A DNA stretch of 14,989 bases from Candidatus Rokuibacteriota bacterium (lineage in GTDB: Bacteria > Methylomirabilota > Methylomirabilia > Rokubacteriales > JACPHL01): the NCBI GenBank assembly GCA_016188625.1, contig JACPHL010000264.1, positions 1 through 14,989 of the forward strand, given 5' to 3'. The first letter of the stretch is position 1. Every line of letters starts with the position of its first letter. The position numbers were made by a program, and so were the translations under genes. This document shows, piece after piece, positions 2,453-14,747 of this stretch. A model generated the notes under the pieces. That model saw only the letters and a program-made list of their open reading frames with translations. It was not told the origin of the DNA and ran no database searches.

Positions 2453-3178
2453 TCACCGCCTGGGAAAACTGACGTACAGCAGATCGAGCGCCGCGAGGGG
2501 GACGAGGACGATCGGAAGGAGGACGAGCGTCGCGCCGAGGATGAGGGCGGGGAGCGTCGGGATACCGCCCTCCACCAGGAGGATCAGCCCGGCGATCCCG
2601 ATCAGCAGGCCGGCCAGGCCGGCGGTCACCGCAGCCAGCAGAAACGGCCGCCCACGGGCGGGGAGCCCGAGAGCGAAGTGGCCGAGCCCCGGGACGACGC
2701 AGTAGAGGAGCGTGGAGGCGAGGGACGGCGGCAGGCCCGCGAAGAGGGACACCAGGGGCTCCGGGACCGGCTGACGGAGGAGCGCCGCCAGGCTACGGAT
2801 GAGACCCAACAGGATGCCGTACGCCAGCCCGGCAGCCAGCGCGAACAGGAGGGCCACGACGCTCCAGAGCCGAAGAGGGATCGGGAACGGCTCGCCCGTC
2901 AGGAGGTGGAGGACCGCCTTCTCCACCCCTCCCACCAGGCCGGCGAGCACCCCCAGCAGGAACCCGAAGCCCAGGTAGGCGGCTGCCTGCCTGGGCAGGC
3001 TCCCGCGTGGCACCTCGAGCCGCGCGGCCGCCAGCGCCGGCGGCGCGAAGAAGAGAAGGAGGACCAGGCCCGTGCTGAGGGGGGTGGGGTTCGGCCGCCC
3101 GGTGAAGTACTGGATGGGGAAGAGGACGGCGACGATGGCCAGGCCTTGGGCCAGGATCCCCGCGCGGGAGCGGCTCAC
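2453..3178 (-). CDS. Polytopic membrane protein of unknown function
   Basis: A 241-residue integral membrane protein with about six or seven hydrophobic segments, near residues 8-25, 34-52, 67-84, 105-127, 145-171, 179-202 and 209-236. The segment VVPGLGHFALGLPARGRPFLL (from residue 161) resembles the PG-x-GHF/QF-x-G loop of small TM2-like or DUF-type membrane proteins. That is a weak resemblance, and I do not recognise a family. No heme-binding His pair on facing helices stands out, so it does not look like a NarI or NrfD type quinone-reactive subunit. The GTG start at 3178 follows the stop of the six-heme cytochrome by only three bases, so the two are translated together. A role in the cytochrome module, for example anchoring or assembly, is an inference from position. 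Confidence 0.75.
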   Translation of the reverse strand: MSRSRAGILAQGLAIVAVLFPIQYFTGRPNPTPLSTGLVLLLFFAPPALAAARLEVPRGSLPRQAAAYLGFGFLLGVLAGLVGGVEKAVLHLLTGEPFPIPLRLWSVVALLFALAAGLAYGILLGLIRSLAALLRQPVPEPLVSLFAGLPPSLASTLLYCVVPGLGHFALGLPARGRPFLLAAVTAGLAGLLIGIAGLILLVEGGIPTLPALILGATLVLLPIVLVPLAALDLLYVSFPRR

Positions 3179-3181
3179 GGG

Positions 3182-3760
3182 CTACCGGGGGAGCCGGGCC
3201 ACGCCGGCCGTCACGCCCTCGACGTGGCACGTGCGGCAGGAGAGCAGCACCTGGCTCTCCCTGGCGTGGCACCCCACGCACGTTTCCATCGCGGGACGCG
3301 CCTGGTGGCCGTAGAGCGAGCCGTGGACGAGCCCGCCGTGACAGGCCGTGCACTCGATGGCGCGGGCCAGGTGGACGCCGTGGAGGACGCGGTGAGAGCC
3401 CGTCGCCTCCGGCAGGGTCAGCGGGGCGTGACAGTGCTGGCAGGTTTCGCTCGCCACCGTCGCCCGCAGGATGGGGCCCGATTTCTCCCCCGTGAGCATC
3501 ACGTAGAGGTAGCGGGTGCCGTTCAGGTGGGCCCTGAGCTCGCCCCAGGGGCCTGGCTCGGAGTGGCACTGGATGCAGGTGGCCCGCTCCCGGTGGGGGG
3601 AGCGCTGCCATGAGACATAGCGGGTCTGCATGACGTGACAGCTCGCGCAGAACCCGGGGGACGCCGTGTAGCGCATCACCCCCCAGGCCCCGACCGCCCC
3701 GATCCCGACGACGACCAGGAGGAGCAGAAGCGCCAGCCAGAAGGCCCGGGGAACCCGCAC
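3182..3760 (-). CDS. NapC/NirT-like six-heme membrane-anchored cytochrome c
   Basis: A 192-residue cytochrome with an N-terminal membrane anchor (residues 7 to 28) and six CxxCH heme sites starting at C38, C62, C107, C137, C161 and C175. The first site reads FCASCHVM. CxxCHxM is the heme-1 pattern of NapC/NrfH proteins, in which the Met serves as axial ligand. The following YVSWQRSPHRERATCIQCH also fits the NapC/NirT amino-terminal pattern. Usual members have four hemes; two additional sites are present here. Known relatives move electrons between the membrane quinone pool and periplasmic enzymes, so this is the best candidate for the link between quinone and the molybdoenzyme. The GTG start at 3760 has a weak GGGGA upstream, and 21 bases separate it from the eight-heme cytochrome gene. 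Confidence 0.88.
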   Translation of the reverse strand: MRVPRAFWLALLLLLVVVGIGAVGAWGVMRYTASPGFCASCHVMQTRYVSWQRSPHRERATCIQCHSEPGPWGELRAHLNGTRYLYVMLTGEKSGPILRATVASETCQHCHAPLTLPEATGSHRVLHGVHLARAIECTACHGGLVHGSLYGHQARPAMETCVGCHARESQVLLSCRTCHVEGVTAGVARLPR

Positions 3761-3781
3761 GACCAGGAAGTCCCCGGGCGG

Positions 3782-4972
3782 CTACCGCCGCCCCAGCACG
3801 GCGAAGCGGAGCTTGACGCCGTCCTCCAGCGCCTTCTGGAGCTGGGCCGGCGGGTCGTCCTTGTGCCAGTGGCAGCTGTTGCAGGCGTTCGGCTGCTTGG
3901 CCGGGTCGCCGCCGCCGAGCCTGATGGTGACCTCGGGCCTCACCACCCGGAAGGTGTGGACCCGCTCGTCCCCCCGGTCGGCGCTCTTGCCCGTGCGGGC
4001 CATGTGGCAGCCCACGCAGTCGGGGTGCTGCGGCGCGCCGGCGATGGGCGCGTGGCCCGTCACCGAGTCCGTGCTCACGTTCGAGTGGCAGGAGACGCAG
4101 AGGTTGTTCGGCGTCAGGCGCGTGGCGAACTTGGTCGGGGCCTCGTGCACGGCGTGGCAGGTGAGGCAGGTGACGCCGGCCTTGGCGTGGCGGGAGTCCT
4201 TCCACTCGGGGTACTGCTGGCGGTGCTGCTTGACGGATCCGTCGGGCCACCAGGCCGCGTCGTCCTTCTTGTCCACCACGACGAAGTGCGCGGTGGTCAG
4301 GTAGTCGCCGACCCTGAACCCCACCGGGTGGCTCCACTGGCCGTCGGGGCTCTGGCCGCGGGTGTGGCACTGGCCGCAGACCGACGCGGCGTAGTCGAAC
4401 GGCAGCTTGGCGGGGTTGACGATGGTGCCGAACCGCTCTTCGGGCTTGGCGTTCACGTGCCGCTCGCCGGGGCCGTGGCAGGCCTCGCACCCGACGCTCA
4501 GCTCCGTCCACGTCAGGGTCGCCGGGTCGAACCCCACCACGTGACAGGAGGCGCACGACTTCCGCCAGTCGGCCGTCCCCCCCTTGTCCACGTTGTAGCC
4601 GGCCCACCGGTTGGCCTCGAAGTCCCACTGGGCGGGATAGACCTGCCACTTCTCCCCGATGTACCGCTGCTTCCACTGCACCCCGTGGGTGAGCCTGACG
4701 TCCTTCTTCTCGAACTTGCGGTGCTCGAAGGGCTGGGTCCAGTCGCCCTGGATGGCCTGGGGGTTCTTGGAGACGTCCTGGATGACCATGGCGTGGACCG
4801 TCCCCTGCCAGGAGGCGTAGATCCGGTCGTGGCACTCCCGGCACGCGCCCGACCCCACGTATCCCTGGGCCCCGGCCGGTGGCGCTGCGGTCTTGCAGGC
4901 GGAGAGGGAAAGGAGCGAGACAACCGCGAGCAGGGGAACCGCGAGGGATTGCCAGCGCCGCCCGGTGTCCAC
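3782..4972 (-). CDS. Eight-heme cytochrome c lipoprotein (cytochrome c554-like)
   Basis: A 396-residue exported multiheme cytochrome. From the GTG at 4972 the protein starts with a short basic region and hydrophobic core, then the lipobox LSAC with C26, so it should be a lipoprotein. Eight CxxCH sites begin at C44, C140, C162, C199, C269, C292, C319 and C364. The segment GYVGSGACRECHDRIYASWQ is the typical start of the cytochrome c554/c552-type multiheme domain. The GTG is preferred because AGGAGG lies six bases upstream; an ATG at 5008 would put 12 extra residues before the signal and lacks this support. The protein probably passes electrons between the heme-b subunit and the neighbouring six-heme cytochrome. 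A catalytic role as in hydroxylamine or nitrite enzymes is possible, but no five-coordinate heme site can be proved. A promoter-like sequence precedes it. Confidence 0.88.
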   Translation of the reverse strand: MDTGRRWQSLAVPLLAVVSLLSLSACKTAAPPAGAQGYVGSGACRECHDRIYASWQGTVHAMVIQDVSKNPQAIQGDWTQPFEHRKFEKKDVRLTHGVQWKQRYIGEKWQVYPAQWDFEANRWAGYNVDKGGTADWRKSCASCHVVGFDPATLTWTELSVGCEACHGPGERHVNAKPEERFGTIVNPAKLPFDYAASVCGQCHTRGQSPDGQWSHPVGFRVGDYLTTAHFVVVDKKDDAAWWPDGSVKQHRQQYPEWKDSRHAKAGVTCLTCHAVHEAPTKFATRLTPNNLCVSCHSNVSTDSVTGHAPIAGAPQHPDCVGCHMARTGKSADRGDERVHTFRVVRPEVTIRLGGGDPAKQPNACNSCHWHKDDPPAQLQKALEDGVKLRFAVLGRR

Positions 4973-5016
4973 GATGATCCTCCTCCCGCGGTGAGAGGTG
5001 ACGGCCAACCAGAAAG

Positions 5017-5046
5017 AAGCTAGCGCGGCCTCCCGATCTCTGTCAA
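5017..5046 (-). promoter_or_regulatory. Possible sigma-70 type promoter for the cytochrome genes
   Basis: On the minus strand a perfect -35 TTGACA (5046 to 5041) is followed after 18 bases by TAGCTT (5022 to 5017), which keeps the key T, A and final T of the -10 box. Transcription would start near 5010, giving an untranslated leader of about 38 bases with the AGGAGG before the GTG at 4972. The -35 overlaps the stop codon of the TorD-like gene. The 70-base gap here is the largest within the redox module, which fits an internal promoter. Confidence 0.42.
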
Positions 5047-5738
5047 CCCTGATTCTTGCCCGAACACCCGGCGGCGAACGGACAGGCGAGAGGTCCGGGA
5101 TCGCGCGGCACGGTGGCGATCGGCGGCAGCGCCTCGACGCCGAGGAGCCGGCACTCGGCGAGGAGAAACTCCCTGAGCAGCCGGGCCGCCAGCCGGTAGA
5201 ACCCCTCCTCGGTGGCGGCCTCGATCCGGTCGGCGAAGGCCCCGGCCCACGCGGCGAGGTGGTCGGCCAGGAACTTCCCGGTCGCCTCCAGAGAGACGGC
5301 CCGCGCCTCCTCCCTCCCCTCGACCTGCGCCTGGGCCGTCTTCAGGAGGAGCAGCGCCATGAACTCGAGCTCCACGGCGAGGTGGTCGGGGAACTCCCCG
5401 CTCCCCTCGGCGAGCCGGAACCCGAAGGCCTCGTAGAAGCCGAGGAGGTCCGCCAGGCGATGCCCCTTCCGGGCCGCGGCGAGGGGGTCGTACTCGGTCT
5501 CGTAGGGCGTCGCGGCCAGGCCGACCCCGAAGAGACGGGTATGCTCGCCCTCCGGCGGCCGCGCGATGGCGCCCTCGGGGAGGATCGGTCCGAGGGCGAG
5601 CCGATGCCCGTCGGGGAGGTCGCGGACGATCCGGTCGAGCCCGGAAAGGGGGTCCGCCGCACGGGGCGGCAGGAAGGCCAGGGAGAGGAGCTTATAGCAG
5701 GCGCTCCGGGCGACGGTCTCGGCCAGGTCCAGGGCCAT
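5043..5738 (-). CDS. TorD/DmsD/NarJ-family molybdoenzyme assembly chaperone
   Basis: A 231-residue, helix-rich cytoplasmic protein of the TorD/NarJ superfamily. These proteins bind the Tat signal or N-terminus of a molybdoenzyme catalytic subunit, hold it for cofactor insertion and delay export. Family features include SACYKLLSLAFLPP near the start, the YETEYDPL segment (residues 79 to 86) and the PDHLAVELEFMALLL segment (117 to 131), which contain the conserved acidic and hydrophobic positions of the family. Its client is very likely the Tat-tagged alpha subunit encoded in the same operon. The ATG at 5738 has GGAGG six bases upstream, overlapping the stop of the gamma subunit gene (gap of three bases). 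The C-terminus has a short cysteine pair (CPFAAGC) whose meaning is unknown. Confidence 0.9.
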   Translation of the reverse strand: MALDLAETVARSACYKLLSLAFLPPRAADPLSGLDRIVRDLPDGHRLALGPILPEGAIARPPEGEHTRLFGVGLAATPYETEYDPLAAARKGHRLADLLGFYEAFGFRLAEGSGEFPDHLAVELEFMALLLLKTAQAQVEGREEARAVSLEATGKFLADHLAAWAGAFADRIEAATEEGFYRLAARLLREFLLAECRLLGVEALPPIATVPRDPGPLACPFAAGCSGKNQG

Positions 5739-5741
5739 GGC

Positions 5742-6617
5742 TCACCTCCCCACGGCGCCGAGCTTCAGCGTGATCCAGTCCGAGATGGCCTTCCGCGCGC
5801 CGATCTCCTTGGCGCCGCCGTCCCAGGCCGCGAAGGCCACCGGAGCGCTCCTGCCGGGCCGCCAGGCGGGGTCGTTCGGGTCGCCGGCGGCGAAGGGGCG
5901 GGCGATCACCACGTGCCAGGCGCCGTCGGCGTACACCCCCTTGCCGACCGCGCTCTGCCGCTCGGTGGTCGTCAGCGTGCTGAAGCCCTCGGCGATCTGC
6001 TCCTCGACCGCGGTGCGCTTGTCGGGCTGGGAGCGGGGGTTGCCGAGGACCCAGCCGGTCAGGTAGCGCCGGGCCTCGGGGTTCGTCCACGCCGTGATGT
6101 CGTAGGGCGGCTCGCCGGCCACGAAGGGGTACCAGTCCTGCCAGGCGTTCGGGTAGAGCTGGGCGATATCCTGGAAGGTCCGATCGATGTCCTCCTGCCA
6201 GTCGGCCTTCCAGTGCAGGATCAGGACGCGCTCCCCGGGCCCGCCCATGATGATGGGGGCCGCCTTGCCCACCGGGACCATGAGCGCCACGGCGTCCCGG
6301 AAGCTGTCGGTGTACATCACCGCGTTCTTCGTGGCGTCCTTCCAGCTGATGCGGAACGCGATCCAGGTCCCGTTGTGGACCGCCTGGACCCTGAGCTGCT
6401 TGATGGAGGGGGTGAGGTTCCAGGGCTGCGCCACGGCCTGGGGCATGAGGGGAACCTGGACAGCCGGCGCCGCTTTCCAGCCGGTCCAGCCCGGATCCAC
6501 GGGGATGGCGGTCTTGACGAAGGGGACCTGCAGGGCCGCCTGCTGGGCCTCGGCGGCAGCGAGGCCCAGGGCGAAGATCAGCGCGAGGAGCGCGAGGGGC
6601 AGTCGTCGGGCTCGCAT
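5742..6617 (-). CDS. Exported heme-b gamma subunit of ethylbenzene dehydrogenase type
   Basis: A 291-residue secreted protein matching the heme-b gamma subunit family found in ethylbenzene, DMS, selenate and chlorate enzymes and in nitrite oxidoreductase. A Sec signal peptide covers residues 1 to 24 (RARR, hydrophobic core, then AEA before QQ). In this family one heme b is held by a Met and a Lys. Likely ligands here are M124 in PIIMGGPGE and K276 in GARKAISDW; these are assigned by resemblance, not by alignment. The ILHWKADWQEDID segment (132 to 145) and VAFAAWDGG (260 to 268) are typical. It should receive electrons from the beta subunit and pass them to the cytochromes c encoded just downstream. 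The ATG at 6617 has AAGGGGGGA upstream and lies 13 bases after the beta stop. Confidence 0.88.
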   Translation of the reverse strand: MRARRLPLALLALIFALGLAAAEAQQAALQVPFVKTAIPVDPGWTGWKAAPAVQVPLMPQAVAQPWNLTPSIKQLRVQAVHNGTWIAFRISWKDATKNAVMYTDSFRDAVALMVPVGKAAPIIMGGPGERVLILHWKADWQEDIDRTFQDIAQLYPNAWQDWYPFVAGEPPYDITAWTNPEARRYLTGWVLGNPRSQPDKRTAVEEQIAEGFSTLTTTERQSAVGKGVYADGAWHVVIARPFAAGDPNDPAWRPGRSAPVAFAAWDGGAKEIGARKAISDWITLKLGAVGR

Positions 6618-6630
6618 GGCGTCCCCCCTT

Positions 6631-7767
6631 CTAGGTGATGTTGTGGCGGTAGACCTGCCGGGCCGCGTCGTAGAACGGCCGGAGGTAGTCGGGCTCCTTC
6701 ACCGGAACCCGGACGATCTCCCGCCCCTTGCCGTCGTACCCCGCGGCCTCGCCGGTCGTGGGGAAGGTCCTGAACGACTCGAGGATCTCCTTGGCGTCCC
6801 CGAAGAGGTGGAGGAGCCCCAGGAGCTCGGGGTCGTCCTTCCCCCGGAGGTAGGTCTCGATGGCCCCGTCCGTGCCGGGACCGAACATCTGCCGGAGGAA
6901 ACCCCGCGGCACATTGACCGGCGGGATGTAGTAGATGTTCCCCTCGAGGCCGAACTGGGGGTAGAGCGGCAGCGCCACCTTCCGCGCGTGGACGAGGAAG
7001 TCCATGGGGCGGTCGGCCCGCGCCTGGTCGGGCGGGGAGAGGAAGCCCATCAGCCGGATCTTCCCGATGCAGGTGGTGACGCAGCGCGGTTGGGTCCCCT
7101 GCTCGACGGCGGGGAAGCACCCGATGCACTTCTGGGAGATGCGGAGGACGGGGTTGTAGAGGACCTTCCCGTACGGGCAGGCCTGGACGCACTCCCGGTA
7201 GCCCCGGCAGCGGCTCTGGTCCACCAGCACGATCCCGTCCTCGGGGCGCTTGTAGATCGCCTGCCTCGGGCAGGCGGCCACGCAGGCGGGGTAGGTGCAG
7301 TGCATGCAGATCCGGGGGAGGTAGAACGACCACATGCCGTGGACCGGCATGGTGAAGTAGGCGCCGCGATCCAGGGTCCCGGCCGCCTCGTCCTCGCCGG
7401 CGTTCGGGTGGGCCCAGTCGAGCTCCTCGGGGAGGTGCTTCACCATCGGCTCCCCCGCGGGCGCGGCCTCGAAGAGGGTCTTGCCGGTGTACCGGTCCCC
7501 CTCCCAGGTCTGGGGCCCGAGCCTCTCCAGCCGGGTCACGTCCCACCCCATGGGGTAGCCGCCGTAGGGCTTGGTCTCCACGTTGTTCCAGAGCATGTAC
7601 TCCTGCCCCTTCCCCACGGTCCAGGTGGTCTTGCACGCCATGGTGCAGGTCTGGCAGCCGATGCACTTGTTGAGGTCGAAGACCGCGGCAAACTGCCGGC
7701 GGGGCCGGGACTCGGGGAACGGGTACTCCATCTCGCGGCCGATCTGCCAGTTCTTGACGGTGCCCAT
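6631..7767 (-). CDS. Iron-sulfur beta subunit, NarH/NxrB type
   Basis: A 378-residue electron-transfer subunit of a type II DMSO reductase family enzyme. Four cysteine groups are visible: C35, C38, C41, C45 ([11 protein letters not shown]); C154, C157, C162, C166; C187, C193, C197; and C214, C217, C229, C233. In the third group, CRGYREC, a tyrosine (Y190) stands where a fourth cysteine would be; NarH has Trp at this place and holds a 3Fe-4S cluster there. Three 4Fe-4S clusters plus one 3Fe-4S cluster are therefore expected. There is no signal peptide, so it should be exported folded together with the Tat-tagged alpha subunit. The ATG at 7767 follows a strong GAGGAGG that overlaps the alpha stop codon, giving tight 1:1 coupling. 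Length and motif order fit NxrB, DdhB and EbdB better than the longer NarH. Confidence 0.92.
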
Positions 7768-7770
7768 GGC

Positions 7771-10700
7771 TCACCTCCTCACCTGAACGTAGTCGCCGCG
7801 GAGGAAACGCTTGAGCGCCTCGTTCTCGTAGGTCGGGCGGAAGCCGCGGGCCGCCGGGTGCCAGAGGCCCCGGCCCCCGATCCCGCCGTCCTCGGCCTTG
7901 GCGAGCCGCGCCATGGACTCCCGCGGCGCCCCATTCACCGTGTGGACATCGGGGAGGAACCCCTTCCCGATGAGCTGGCCGAAGACCTCCTTGCGGACCA
8001 GGGAGTCGGTGGACAGGGTCGGCCGGAGCCAGGCGCGCGTGACCGACTGGTGGCTGCCGTACCGGAACATCGCCTGGTAGTGGGTCAGGGAGTTCTTCGC
8101 CAGGCCGTCGGGACGCGACTCGTGCGCCTTCACCGAGCCGTGGCTCGCGCCGTACATGTTGAACCACATCCGGACCACGCCGCGGGGCGTGCCGGGGTAG
8201 TAGCGGGCCCGGCACATCATCCGCGCCACCTTGTACATGGGATCCCCGGCCTTCCAGCCGCGGTAGGGGCGATCCTCGGCCCAGCCGTCCACCCAGATGT
8301 AGTCGCCGTCCTCGATGCCGAGGGCCTTGGCGTCCGCGGGGTTGATGTCGGCGTACCCCTCGGCGAGGAACGGCGTCCGCTTATCCCGCCGGTAGACGTC
8401 GCTGAACGGCCCGAAGACGACGGCCAGGAAGTCGGTGTCGGGGCCGGTGGTGTGGGCCCCGTGGCGGTACTTGGGGGTGTGGTAGATGACCGGGTAGCCC
8501 GCCTGGACGAGCGGGCTCGCCGTCTTCTTGAGATCCGCCCACGGCATGACGACGGTCAGGACCTGGCGGACGTCGGATTTGGCGAAATCGGCCGGGGCGA
8601 TCCCGAACCGGTCGGGCGGGACGGGGCGGAGGAGCGGGTGGGGCCGGGCCACGATGACGCTGGGGTGGTAGAAGGTCGCCTCCACCGGCTCCTTGTAGAC
8701 CAGGAGGTTCTCCCCCAGGGTGATGAACTCGTCCTCCTCCCGGTAGAACTCCAGCCGCCCGGTCTTGGTGTACCAGGGGCGCGACTCCTGGGTCTGCTCC
8801 CACCCGGTCTGGCGCGGGGTGGTGCGGGTCATCATGAGGGCCGGGACCCCGTCGCGGGCCCGCTGCTCCAGCTCCGCGAAGCGGTAGCCCCGGGTCGCGT
8901 TGGAGGCGGCGAGGATCCGGTCGAGGTAGACCTCGACCCGCCCCTCGTGGACGAACCGCCAGTAGTCGAGGAACCGCCGGTCCCCGGTGATCCGGGCCAG
9001 GACGGCCGAGATCCCCGCGGGGACCTCGATGTCCGAGCGGGTGTCCAGGAGCCTCGGGTGCGGGGTCCGCGGGAAGACGGTCAGGAACGGGTTCGTCACC
9101 GAGGCGCACATGTCGGGGAACTTCAGCTCGTGCCAGGCGTCCGCGGGGAAGACGATGTCCGAGTACTCGCAGGTCATCGTCCACCACCACTCGCTGGTGC
9201 ACCACAGCTCGATCCGGGGCAGGGTGTTGGCGATGACGTCGTAGGCGCCCTTGGCGTTGCCGAGGATCGAGTTGGAGTTGGCCACGAAGACCGCCTTGGT
9301 GGGGGCCGGCATGTGGGTCCGGCCGGTGAACATCTTCGTCCCCACCTTCAGGGGCCGGTCGCCGGCGTTGTAGTAGTGGGCCGACTCCCCCCGCCAGTAG
9401 AGCCGGGCCCTGGCCGGTCGGGCCGGGTCCGGCTCGATGTCGAAGGGGTTTTCGGCGATGTACTGGGGCAGCCCGTTGAAGAGGGCCGCCCGGTAGTTGC
9501 CGGCGTAGCTTCCGACGTTGCCGCCCTTCTGGCCGATGTTGGCGGTCAGGGCGGCCACCAGGAAGATGGCGCGGTCCTTGAGGTCGGCGTTGAAGAACTG
9601 GTTGGGCCCCATCCCGACCGGGATGAGGGTGCGGCCGCGGTTCCGCGCGATCTCGCGGGCCAGGTTGACGATCGCCTCCTGCGGGGCCCAGGTGATCTCC
9701 GCGACCTGGTCCGGGGTGAAGTTCTCGTCGAGGTAGCGGCGCACCAGTCCGAACAGGGGCGCCACCGGCACCTCCTGGCCGCTTACGGTCCTCACCGTGA
9801 ACTCGCCCTCGAGGGCCGGGACGAGGCCCAGGCGGTCGAAGGGTTCGCCGACCTGGTCGCGGCTGACGGGAGCGACCCCGCCACGCCGGGTGTCCCAGAC
9901 GACGAAGTCGCCCCACTCCCGGCGCAGCGCCTCGGGGACGAGCTGCCGGTCCTGGAGCGGGGAGGCCGGCGGGGCCTGGCCGGGCGCCAGGACCGTGGTG
10001 AAGGCGCCCAGCTCGGCCGGCCGATACTCGGGGATCACCTCGGCGGCCCGGAGGAGCTTCAGGGTGTCGAGGCGGACCAGGAGCGGCAGGTCGGTGTGAC
10101 GCTTGACGAAGGCCTCGTCGTAGCGCCGCTCGGCGATCAGGACCTGGGCGAGGCCCAGGGCGAGGGCCGCGTCGGTCCCGGGTCGGATGACGAGCACCTC
10201 GTCGGCCTTGGGGGCTGTGGCGCTGTACTCCACCGAGACCACGACGACCTTGGTCCCCTTGAGCCGCGCCTCGGTGAGCCAGTGGCTGTCCGGCATCTTC
10301 GTCGCGATCCAGTTCATCCCCCAGACCACGATCAGGCCCGCGTGTTCGGCCGCCGAGAGGTCGAAGTCCACCGTCTGCTGGCCGGTGACCATGGGGTGGC
10401 CGGGCGGGAGGTCGGTGTGCCAGGAGTAGTTGTCCCACCCCCGGGCGCCCAGGGCCTGGTCGGGCCCGACCTTCCGGATCCACGCGTCCAGGAGGGCGAG
10501 GGCGTTGCCGAAGCGGTAGTGGCCGTAGATCCGAGTGGCGCCCAGGAGCGGCATCCCGCCGCGGACCTTGACCGTCTGGGTCCCCGCGCCCCGGGTGGCC
10601 TCGACCATCGCGGGGTCGTACCCCTGGGCGCGGAGGAGGGCCTGGCCGGATGCGCCGCTGTAAGTCGTCGCGATGTTGACCAGGGCCTGGGCGGCAACCT

Positions 10701-11229
10701 CCAGGGCCCGCTCCCAGGAGACCTTCACCCACTCGTCGGTGCCGCGCTGGAAGAGCTCGCCCGGGGGCCGGCCGTCCGCCCCGCGGGGGAAGCCCTGCTC
10801 CACCCACTGGAGGAAGCCCTTCCGCACCATGGGGGCCTTCACCCGCCGGTCGCCGTAGAAGCGGCGCATCATCGTGAGCCCTTTCTGGCAGCAGCGCGGC
10901 TCCCAGCGGTGCGTCGCCCGGTTCCCGTAGAGGTCGGTCGCCCTGCCGTAGCCGTAGGTGGGCTCGATCCGGACGATCACCCCGTTCCGGACGTAGGCCT
11001 CGAGGAGGCAGTTGTGGGTGTCGTTGGGGGCGCAGAGGAAGACGAACTTCGAGTCGTAGCGCCAGATGTCGCGGTAGACGGTCTCCCAGTCTCGGGCCGG
11101 GTAGTGGGCCAACGGGTTCTCCACCTTGATCGGCTCCAGGAACTGGAGCGCCCAGGCCTCCCGCGGCAGGAGGGTGAGGGCCCCGCCGAGACCGGACAGC
11201 TCGAGGAAGTGTCGCCGTGTCAGCTCCAT
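7771..11229 (-). CDS. Molybdenum catalytic alpha subunit, type II DMSO reductase family (NarG/NxrA-like)
   Basis: A 1152-residue bis-MGD molybdoenzyme. It begins with a twin-arginine signal ([10 protein letters not shown]), so it acts in the periplasm. The first iron-sulfur site reads C66-x3-D70-x3-C74, then C114 in EPRCCQKG. Aligned by eye with NarG (H-x3-C-x3-C before YVKNG), a Cys replaces His and an Asp replaces the middle Cys. The molybdenum ligand Asp of the type II family is D273 in [11 protein letters not shown], followed by [22 protein letters not shown] and [21 protein letters not shown], all typical. Length is close to NxrA (about 1150) and shorter than NarG (about 1250). The ATG at 11229 has GGAGGGG upstream. 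Substrate is not determined: nitrite/nitrate, selenate, chlorate, sulfur or hydrocarbon chemistry are all known in the family. It heads the alpha-beta-gamma-chaperone operon. Confidence 0.93.
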
Positions 11230-11251: not shown

Positions 11252-12325
11252 TCACAGCTCCTCCAGGATGGCCGGGTCGAAGGGGACGAGGTCCGCCACG
11301 GACCCGGCGAACAGGAGCAGGCGGTGGCGCACGGCTTCGGGGATCTTCGGGTACCAGCGCGGGTGGGCGAGGACGAGGGCGCGGAAGCCGAAGAAGGGCG
11401 GCAGGGTCTCCAGGATCTCCTTGTCCCCGGTCGCCGCGAGGTAGACCTCGAGGAAGCGGTGGAAGAAGCCCCGGAACGGCTCCGCGACCCCGGGCCCCTT
11501 GAGGAGGCCGAAGAAGAGGTAGTTGATGGCCAGGGCCGCGACGTCGTCGGCCGGCTCCCCCCACTCCCCCCGGCTCCGGTCGAGGACCGAGAAGTCGGTC
11601 CCCCCCCGGAACAGGAGGTTCCAGGGGTGGAAGTCGCCGTGGACCCGCGCGAGGCGGTAGGCCTTGTCGCGGAGCCGCCACCGCCACGCCACGGCGGCGT
11701 GCTCGAGCGCCTGGCAGGCGTCGGGGGGCAGGAGCGGGTACGGGTGCGGGTAGCTGTCCAGGATCCCCATCAGGCACTCGCCGTGCCCGACCAGCTCCCG
11801 GATCCGGCGGTGGTAGAGCCAGGGCGCGTCCCGTCGCTCGGCGTGGACCTCGGCGAGGAAGCGGGCCAGGGCCTCCACGCGCGCCAGGTCCCTGGGCGCG
11901 GCGGGCTCGGTCCGGAGCCGGTTGAGGTCGAGCCAGTACGGCTCCCCCTCGGCCAGCTCCACGAGCTGGAAGAACTCCGCCGCGTCCGCGGCCGAGACCA
12001 GCTCCCCGGAGCCCCGGCGGAAGCCGACGTCGTAGCTCCGGACGTGGCGGGGGAAGCCGTTGTAGGCCCCGTGTCCCCAGAGGGCGCTCCAGGCCCGGTC
12101 GGCCGGGTAGTCGTGGCCGAACCCCTGCTCCGGCCGCTGCCGCGCCAGGACGAAGCTCCGGGGGGCGCCGTCCACCACGCAGTCCAGGCGGAGGGGGGCG
12201 CCGTAGCCGAACGCCTTGAGGGCGCTCCCCGCGCCGCTCGCCCCGAGGGGGCGGACGTCGAGGAGCCGCACCTCGGTCCCCAGGACCGCCTCGAGGTACC
12301 GCCGGAGCTCGCCGCGCTCGCTCAC
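11252..12325 (-). CDS. APH/choline-kinase-type phosphotransferase family protein
   Basis: A 357-residue protein with the protein-kinase-like phosphotransferase fold. The catalytic loop is HGDFHPWN (H229, D231, N236). The metal-binding Asp is probably D249 in [13 protein letters not shown], followed by [10 protein letters not shown], as in aminoglycoside phosphotransferase (PF01636) relatives. Such proteins phosphorylate small hydroxylated molecules such as aminoglycosides, choline, homoserine or sugars; the substrate is unknown here, and antibiotic resistance should not be assumed. The GTG at 12325 is supported by AAGGTGG four bases upstream, part of which lies in the base of a hairpin. The stop is 22 bases before the start of the molybdenum subunit, which suggests cotranscription with an enzyme that has no evident need for such a kinase. 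Confidence 0.85.
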
Positions 12326-14354: not shown

Positions 14355-14747
14355 TCAGCAGGAGGACGAGTCGAGGGTGCGCGCGATGGCGCCGAGGAGG
14401 TCGTCCCGGGTGACCGGCTTGGAGAGGTAGTCTCTGACCCCGAGGCTCAGCGCCTCGGCGTAGGGCCCCCAGTCCCCGAACGCGGTCAGGACGATGACGG
14501 GGACCCGGTGCCCGGCCGCGCGGAGGGCCCGGATGAAGGCGAACCCGTCCAGCCCCGGCATCAACTGGTCCGTGATGACCAGGGAGACGTGGGCCTCGGC
14601 CAGCCGCGCCAGGGCCTCGGGCCCGCTCACCGCCCCGGTGACGGCGTACCCCTCCTGCCCCAGGAGGCGCGCGAGCCCCGAGAGGAACTCCCGATTGTCG
14701 TCCACCAGGAGGATCGAGGCCGTCTTGGTCCGCGCCGCGGTGGTCAT
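14355..14747 (-). CDS. Receiver-only response regulator
   Basis: A 130-residue receiver domain with no output domain. D16 and D17 form the acidic pocket, D60 in LVITDQLMP is the phosphorylation site, and T88, Y107 and K110 (YLSKP) complete the active site. It is a different protein from the receiver at 1004 to 1402. A likely role is in a phosphorelay or as a signal partner for a kinase encoded elsewhere; no kinase is in view. The gene lies 22 bases downstream of the CBS-domain gene and is probably in its operon. Being receiver-only, it cannot itself be the sigma-54 activator for the next promoter. It ends with a short SSSC tail. Confidence 0.92.
   Translation of the reverse strand: MTTAARTKTASILLVDDNREFLSGLARLLGQEGYAVTGAVSGPEALARLAEAHVSLVITDQLMPGLDGFAFIRALRAAGHRVPVIVLTAFGDWGPYAEALSLGVRDYLSKPVTRDDLLGAIARTLDSSSC

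Follow-up and report, generated by a model that had tools for sequence, protein, structure and literature searches.

The window, the whole 14,989-nt stretch of DNA analyzed here, is a complete contig (JACPHL010000264.1) of a Candidatus Rokuibacteriota metagenome-assembled genome (MAG) of 2.6 Mb that is 84% complete. All genes of the window lie on one strand, and GC content is even along it (69–78%). On the minus strand, from 11229 to 2453, seven open reading frames encode in order a Tat-tagged molybdenum alpha subunit, a four-cluster beta subunit, a gamma subunit, a TorD-type chaperone, an octaheme cytochrome, a hexaheme cytochrome and a protein with six transmembrane (TM) segments. An initial annotation had described this run as a seven-gene module on a single strand with short gaps, and every frame, its domains and all 14 CxxCH motifs were recovered where that annotation placed them. 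The gaps from alpha to the six-TM gene are 3, 13, 3, ~70, 21 and 3 nt, the widest directly preceding the octaheme gene.

It is possible that the run extends upstream into a phosphotransferase (APH)-like gene (11252..12325, minus strand), which ends 22 nt upstream of alpha; its co-transcription with alpha and its functional link to the enzyme are putative. Possible regulators of the operon, a PAS-LuxR protein and two stand-alone response-regulator receivers, are encoded to either side of it on the same strand (240–1402 and 14355–14747). A gene at 1733–2347, just downstream of the six-TM gene, encodes a protein that combines an FmdE domain with a zinc finger of the DksA type. Promoter and terminator scans of the GC-rich window gave no useful signal.

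The alpha gene (7771..11229, minus strand) encodes a 1152-aa NarG/NxrA-like catalytic subunit, predicted to carry Mo-bisMGD and, from the motif RRHFLEL, to be Tat exported. On the same minus strand follow beta (6631..7767; 378 aa), a NarH/NxrB-like subunit assigned four FeS clusters by family and structure-chain matches; gamma (5742..6617; 291 aa), an NxrC/EbdC-like heme-b subunit with an EB_dh domain and a Sec-type signal peptide (hydrophobic N-terminus and AEA site); and a TorD/NarJ-family chaperone (5043..5738; 231 aa) with a TorD-like domain at a significant E-value. Pfam and NCBIfam models put all four in families of type II DMSO reductases, with scores that do not reach the curated cut-offs set for characterized subfamilies. 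Among solved structures, alpha aligned end to end (residues 1–1150) with Kuenenia NXR-A (7b04) at 940 bits, compared with 140–193 bits for perchlorate reductase, ethylbenzene dehydrogenase and NarG, and the Kuenenia complex was also the best match for beta and gamma. Selenate, perchlorate, ethylbenzene and DMS-type enzymes were rejected as candidates with scores far below that of NXR. A canonical cytoplasmic NarGHI was likewise rejected, given the Tat motif on alpha, the lack of a NarI match and a narG model score far below its cut-off.

Residue roles are known for Kuenenia NXR (Chicano et al., PMC8387239), and the predicted Mo ligand (D273), substrate residue (N69) and unusual 3Cys/1Asp FS0 ligand set (C66/D70/C74/C114) of alpha align with their Kuenenia counterparts, as do M124 and K276 of gamma with the heme-b ligands Met155 and Lys305. 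These features are in accord with the initial annotation of a periplasmic type II DMSO-reductase-family enzyme that has no NarI and lies beside 14 c-type heme sites and a NapC/NrfH-type anchor. Its suggestion of a sulfur or selenate substrate found no support, the nearest characterized kin being nitrate and nitrite enzymes.

The octaheme gene (3782..4972, minus strand) encodes a C554/OcwA-like c-type lipoprotein of ~396 aa with eight CxxCH motifs, a C554 domain (at a significant E-value) and the lipobox LSAC. Its start is most likely the GTG at 4972, which is preceded by a GGAGGAGG site, rather than the TTG at 5008, which has no such site. The protein resembles chain 6i5b_A, which we take to be OcwA, over most of its length (residues 44–299; E 2.3e-27) and NrfA chains weakly. 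It contains no CxxCK catalytic heme motif, and its predicted structure had a mean pLDDT of 33 with no usable fold.

The hexaheme cytochrome (3182..3760, minus strand) combines an NrfH/NapC-type N-terminal half with two extra CxxCH motifs. It shares with NrfH/NapC quinol dehydrogenases a single N-terminal TM anchor, a NapC/NirT domain (at a significant E-value) and a first heme of the NrfH type, CxxCHxM (here CASCHVM), but has six heme motifs rather than four and no adjacent NrfA or NapA. Its alignment to 2j7a was too weak for judging quinol-site residues. The 14 CxxCH motifs of the two cytochromes are far more than the means of 0.03–0.05 in composition shuffles. The last gene (2453..3178, minus strand) encodes the protein with six predicted TM segments, to which no family could be assigned; with only two histidines it has too few ligands for a cytochrome b, a candidate we rejected, and a full-length relative was found in none of 95 genomes of the phylum.

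Alpha homologs in the phylum comparison set of 94 other genomes form two groups, group I being 55–85% identical to the window alpha and group II ~45%. A group II member scored 1788 bits against Kuenenia NXR-A, nearly twice the score of the window alpha, which identifies group II as the true NXR branch. Named genomes, when scanned, yielded another 80 group I loci spread over many phyla, including Methanoperedens, Thioalkalivibrio, Thiomargarita and Thioploca. A quick maximum-likelihood tree of 108 rows places group I, which also holds Parabeggiatoa, as sister to the true NXR branch, from which it is separated with SH-aLRT values of 100 and 98. The window alpha falls in group I and not inside the branch holding Kuenenia NxrA in this tree, which was inferred without Nitrospira sequences; its neighbors are the alphas of genome G008 and loci L084 and L085, 85% identical to it. 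Alphas of Nitrospira, Nitrotoga and Hydrogenobacter were placed from papers, and a Natronococcus alpha on a spurious branch of length 7.0, probably caused by a frame break in a translated two-piece match, was left out of the inference. Kitzinger et al. (PMC6050957) described a sister clade of NXR to which the Nitrotoga NXR, the periplasmic Hydrogenobacter NAR and a set of putative nitrate reductases belong, and the nitrate reducers Methanoperedens and Thermogutta have been grouped with NXR (PMC10732223). By sequence, the window alpha thus almost certainly belongs to the periplasmic NXR/Nar clade of type II DMSO reductases, and its core is already known. Because this clade includes the Nitrotoga NXR (PMC6050957), the direction of the reaction is not readable from the tree.

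Two irregularities were noted among these alphas. Those of L084 and L085 are identical proteins from two New Zealand groundwater MAGs labeled Nitrospirae and Acidobacteria, which is likely a case of mis-binning or mis-labeling. The Nitrospirae MAG FK_Sedi_B_Bin.71 (L159:7913-12517) has an in-frame TAG at alpha codon 823 and an in-frame TAA at beta codon 213 in frames that are otherwise conserved, pointing to gene decay, assembly errors or, less likely, recoding.

The A-B-C-TorD core is widely conserved in the clade, and the cytochromes and the six-TM protein are not. By tblastn, beta was detected at 88 of the 93 other group I loci, gamma at 79 and TorD at 61. The octaheme, hexaheme and six-TM genes were detected at none of these 93 loci, 58 of which had 6.5 kb or more of sequence beyond the downstream end of alpha, and were missing even from the three with an 85% identical alpha. 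In one of the three, in G008 (L059), the core is followed by a gene for a monoheme cytochrome and by ACIII-like genes (ActA, ActB and ActC); the other two (L084 and L085) have no same-strand cytochrome gene after TorD, the L084 contig stopping ~3 kb past alpha, and their genomes contain no octaheme homolog at E below 1e-10. Elsewhere in the clade, Rieske and cytochrome b genes lie upstream of the core at 28 of the 93 loci, mainly in Acidobacteriota and in most cases accompanied by a multiheme cytochrome; at five loci the core has a NapH-like protein encoded beside it. Relatives of the octaheme in other genomes (~31–38% identical) are away from any Nar core, and weak NapC/NrfH-type relatives of the hexaheme are common in the comparison genomes but distant from the core. 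The cytochrome module appears to substitute locally for the modules found beside the core in relatives (Rieske/cytochrome b, alternative complex III or NapH-like). It is known from one MAG contig only, and gene order is what ties it to the enzyme. The initial annotation had raised an undescribed respiratory system in which both cytochromes and the membrane protein would be conserved neighbors of alpha. Such conservation was not observed, and alpha falls in a known clade in which the core genes and their order recur, so that what stands of this proposal is the unusual electron-transfer module and not the system as a whole.

Two of the comparison genomes contain further molybdoenzyme arrangements. 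In G008 the group I core adjoins a true NXR-type (group II) core with a diheme gamma on one contig (L059:10481-20000 and L060:1-1851). G020 (L199:2140-9343) encodes a different molybdoenzyme together with a 12-heme NapC-like cytochrome, a pentaheme protein, a membrane protein and an FeS protein, a further case of a multiheme-wired molybdoenzyme in the same class.

Among described systems, the nitrate reductase cluster of Candidatus Methanoperedens (narGH, narJ, a heme-b protein and NapH-like; PMC4683180; L161) has an alpha of the same clade that is 57% identical, and likewise combines a Tat-tagged alpha, a TorD-type chaperone and a heme-b gamma with no NarI. Multiheme cytochromes with five and eight heme motifs are also encoded nearby, though with little similarity to those of the window, and the cluster differs in having a NapH-like membrane partner and CoxII-like genes and no NrfH-type hexaheme. 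The NXR-ABC of Kuenenia stuttgartiensis (7b04, PMC8387239) is homologous in all three subunits, with the same cofactor ligands; in contrast, the window alpha lies outside the NXR branch, its partners differ and no tubule subunit was noted. The core is shared by the group I loci with Rieske and cytochrome b genes, but there quinol oxidation is predicted for a bc-type complex encoded upstream, whereas in the window an NrfH-type cytochrome is encoded downstream. In the Nar/ACIII-like neighborhoods of G008 (L059) and of Planctomycetota clusters (PMC10732223), ActA-F-like genes follow the core in place of the octaheme, hexaheme and six-TM genes; the G008 locus has an 85% identical alpha and the same core order.

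We infer, with moderate confidence and from sequence features, that the locus encodes a periplasmic nitrate reductase fed with quinol through the NrfH-type cytochrome and the octaheme lipoprotein. The catalytic core with its cofactor ligands, the signals for export, the heme motifs and the place in the clade are read directly from the sequence; the direction and the wiring are deduced. The NapC/NirT domain, single anchor and NrfH-like first heme of the hexaheme make quinol oxidation its natural reading. With a potential of ~+0.42 V, nitrate can feasibly accept electrons from quinol, and the reduction of quinone by nitrite is impossible without energy input; it is on this basis that the nitrate-reducing direction is preferred. 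The hexaheme would oxidize quinol at the periplasmic face and pass electrons to the octaheme, from which they would flow through heme b of gamma and the FeS chain of beta to the Mo site of alpha, where nitrate would be reduced to nitrite. The nitrite could then pass to NirK, detected above cut-off elsewhere in the genome. Clade members occur in known nitrate reducers and partner modules differ among relatives, both of which favor this reading; the aa3-type oxidases encoded in the same genome speak against it and would suit nitrite oxidation. A reductase of a high-potential acceptor, one of the two options raised in the initial annotation, is the best-supported reading.

The main alternative, which we consider unlikely, is that the core relies on a soluble carrier, as has been suggested for its relatives, and that the octaheme, hexaheme and six-TM genes form a separate downstream system serving, for example, extracellular electron transfer or detoxification. 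The absence of these cytochrome genes from every other clade locus, the location of the nearest octaheme relatives off the core and the ~70-nt gap before the octaheme gene would all fit such a division, but the genes share a strand, the last three are tightly spaced and no other membrane partner adjoins the core. Less probable still is the oxidative direction, in which a nitrite oxidoreductase would deliver electrons via the octaheme to cytochrome c oxidase. The family shared with Kuenenia NXR, the bidirectionality of NXR (PMC8387239), the Nitrotoga NXR in the neighboring Nar-containing clade (PMC6050957) and the aa3 oxidases are consistent with it; the position of alpha outside the true NXR branch, the failure to find a group II alpha in this 84% complete genome and a partner cytochrome of a normally quinol-facing type argue against it. 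That the octaheme itself reduces nitrite to ammonium, so that the operon would run from nitrate to ammonium, is very improbable despite its similarity to 6i5b_A and weakly to NrfA, given the missing CxxCK motif, the lack of a usable fold and the presence of NirK for nitrite.

Under the quinol-fed nitrate reductase reading, the hexaheme and octaheme may, more tentatively, represent an additional and independently recruited quinol-coupling module of the periplasmic Nar core that replaces bc-type or ACIII coupling, in which case the energy conserved per nitrate would change. The enzyme is ordinary and its membrane wiring looks locally improvised; what is new is an unusual and so far unique electron-transfer module, seen once, beside a known enzyme. 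If the wiring is real, one conserved catalytic core would be plugged into differing quinol-oxidizing machines by lineage (bc-type, ACIII, NapH-like and NrfH-type), with a bearing on how much energy uncultured bacteria gain from nitrate respiration, and nxrA or narG labels in metagenomes would be no guide to either direction or coupling.
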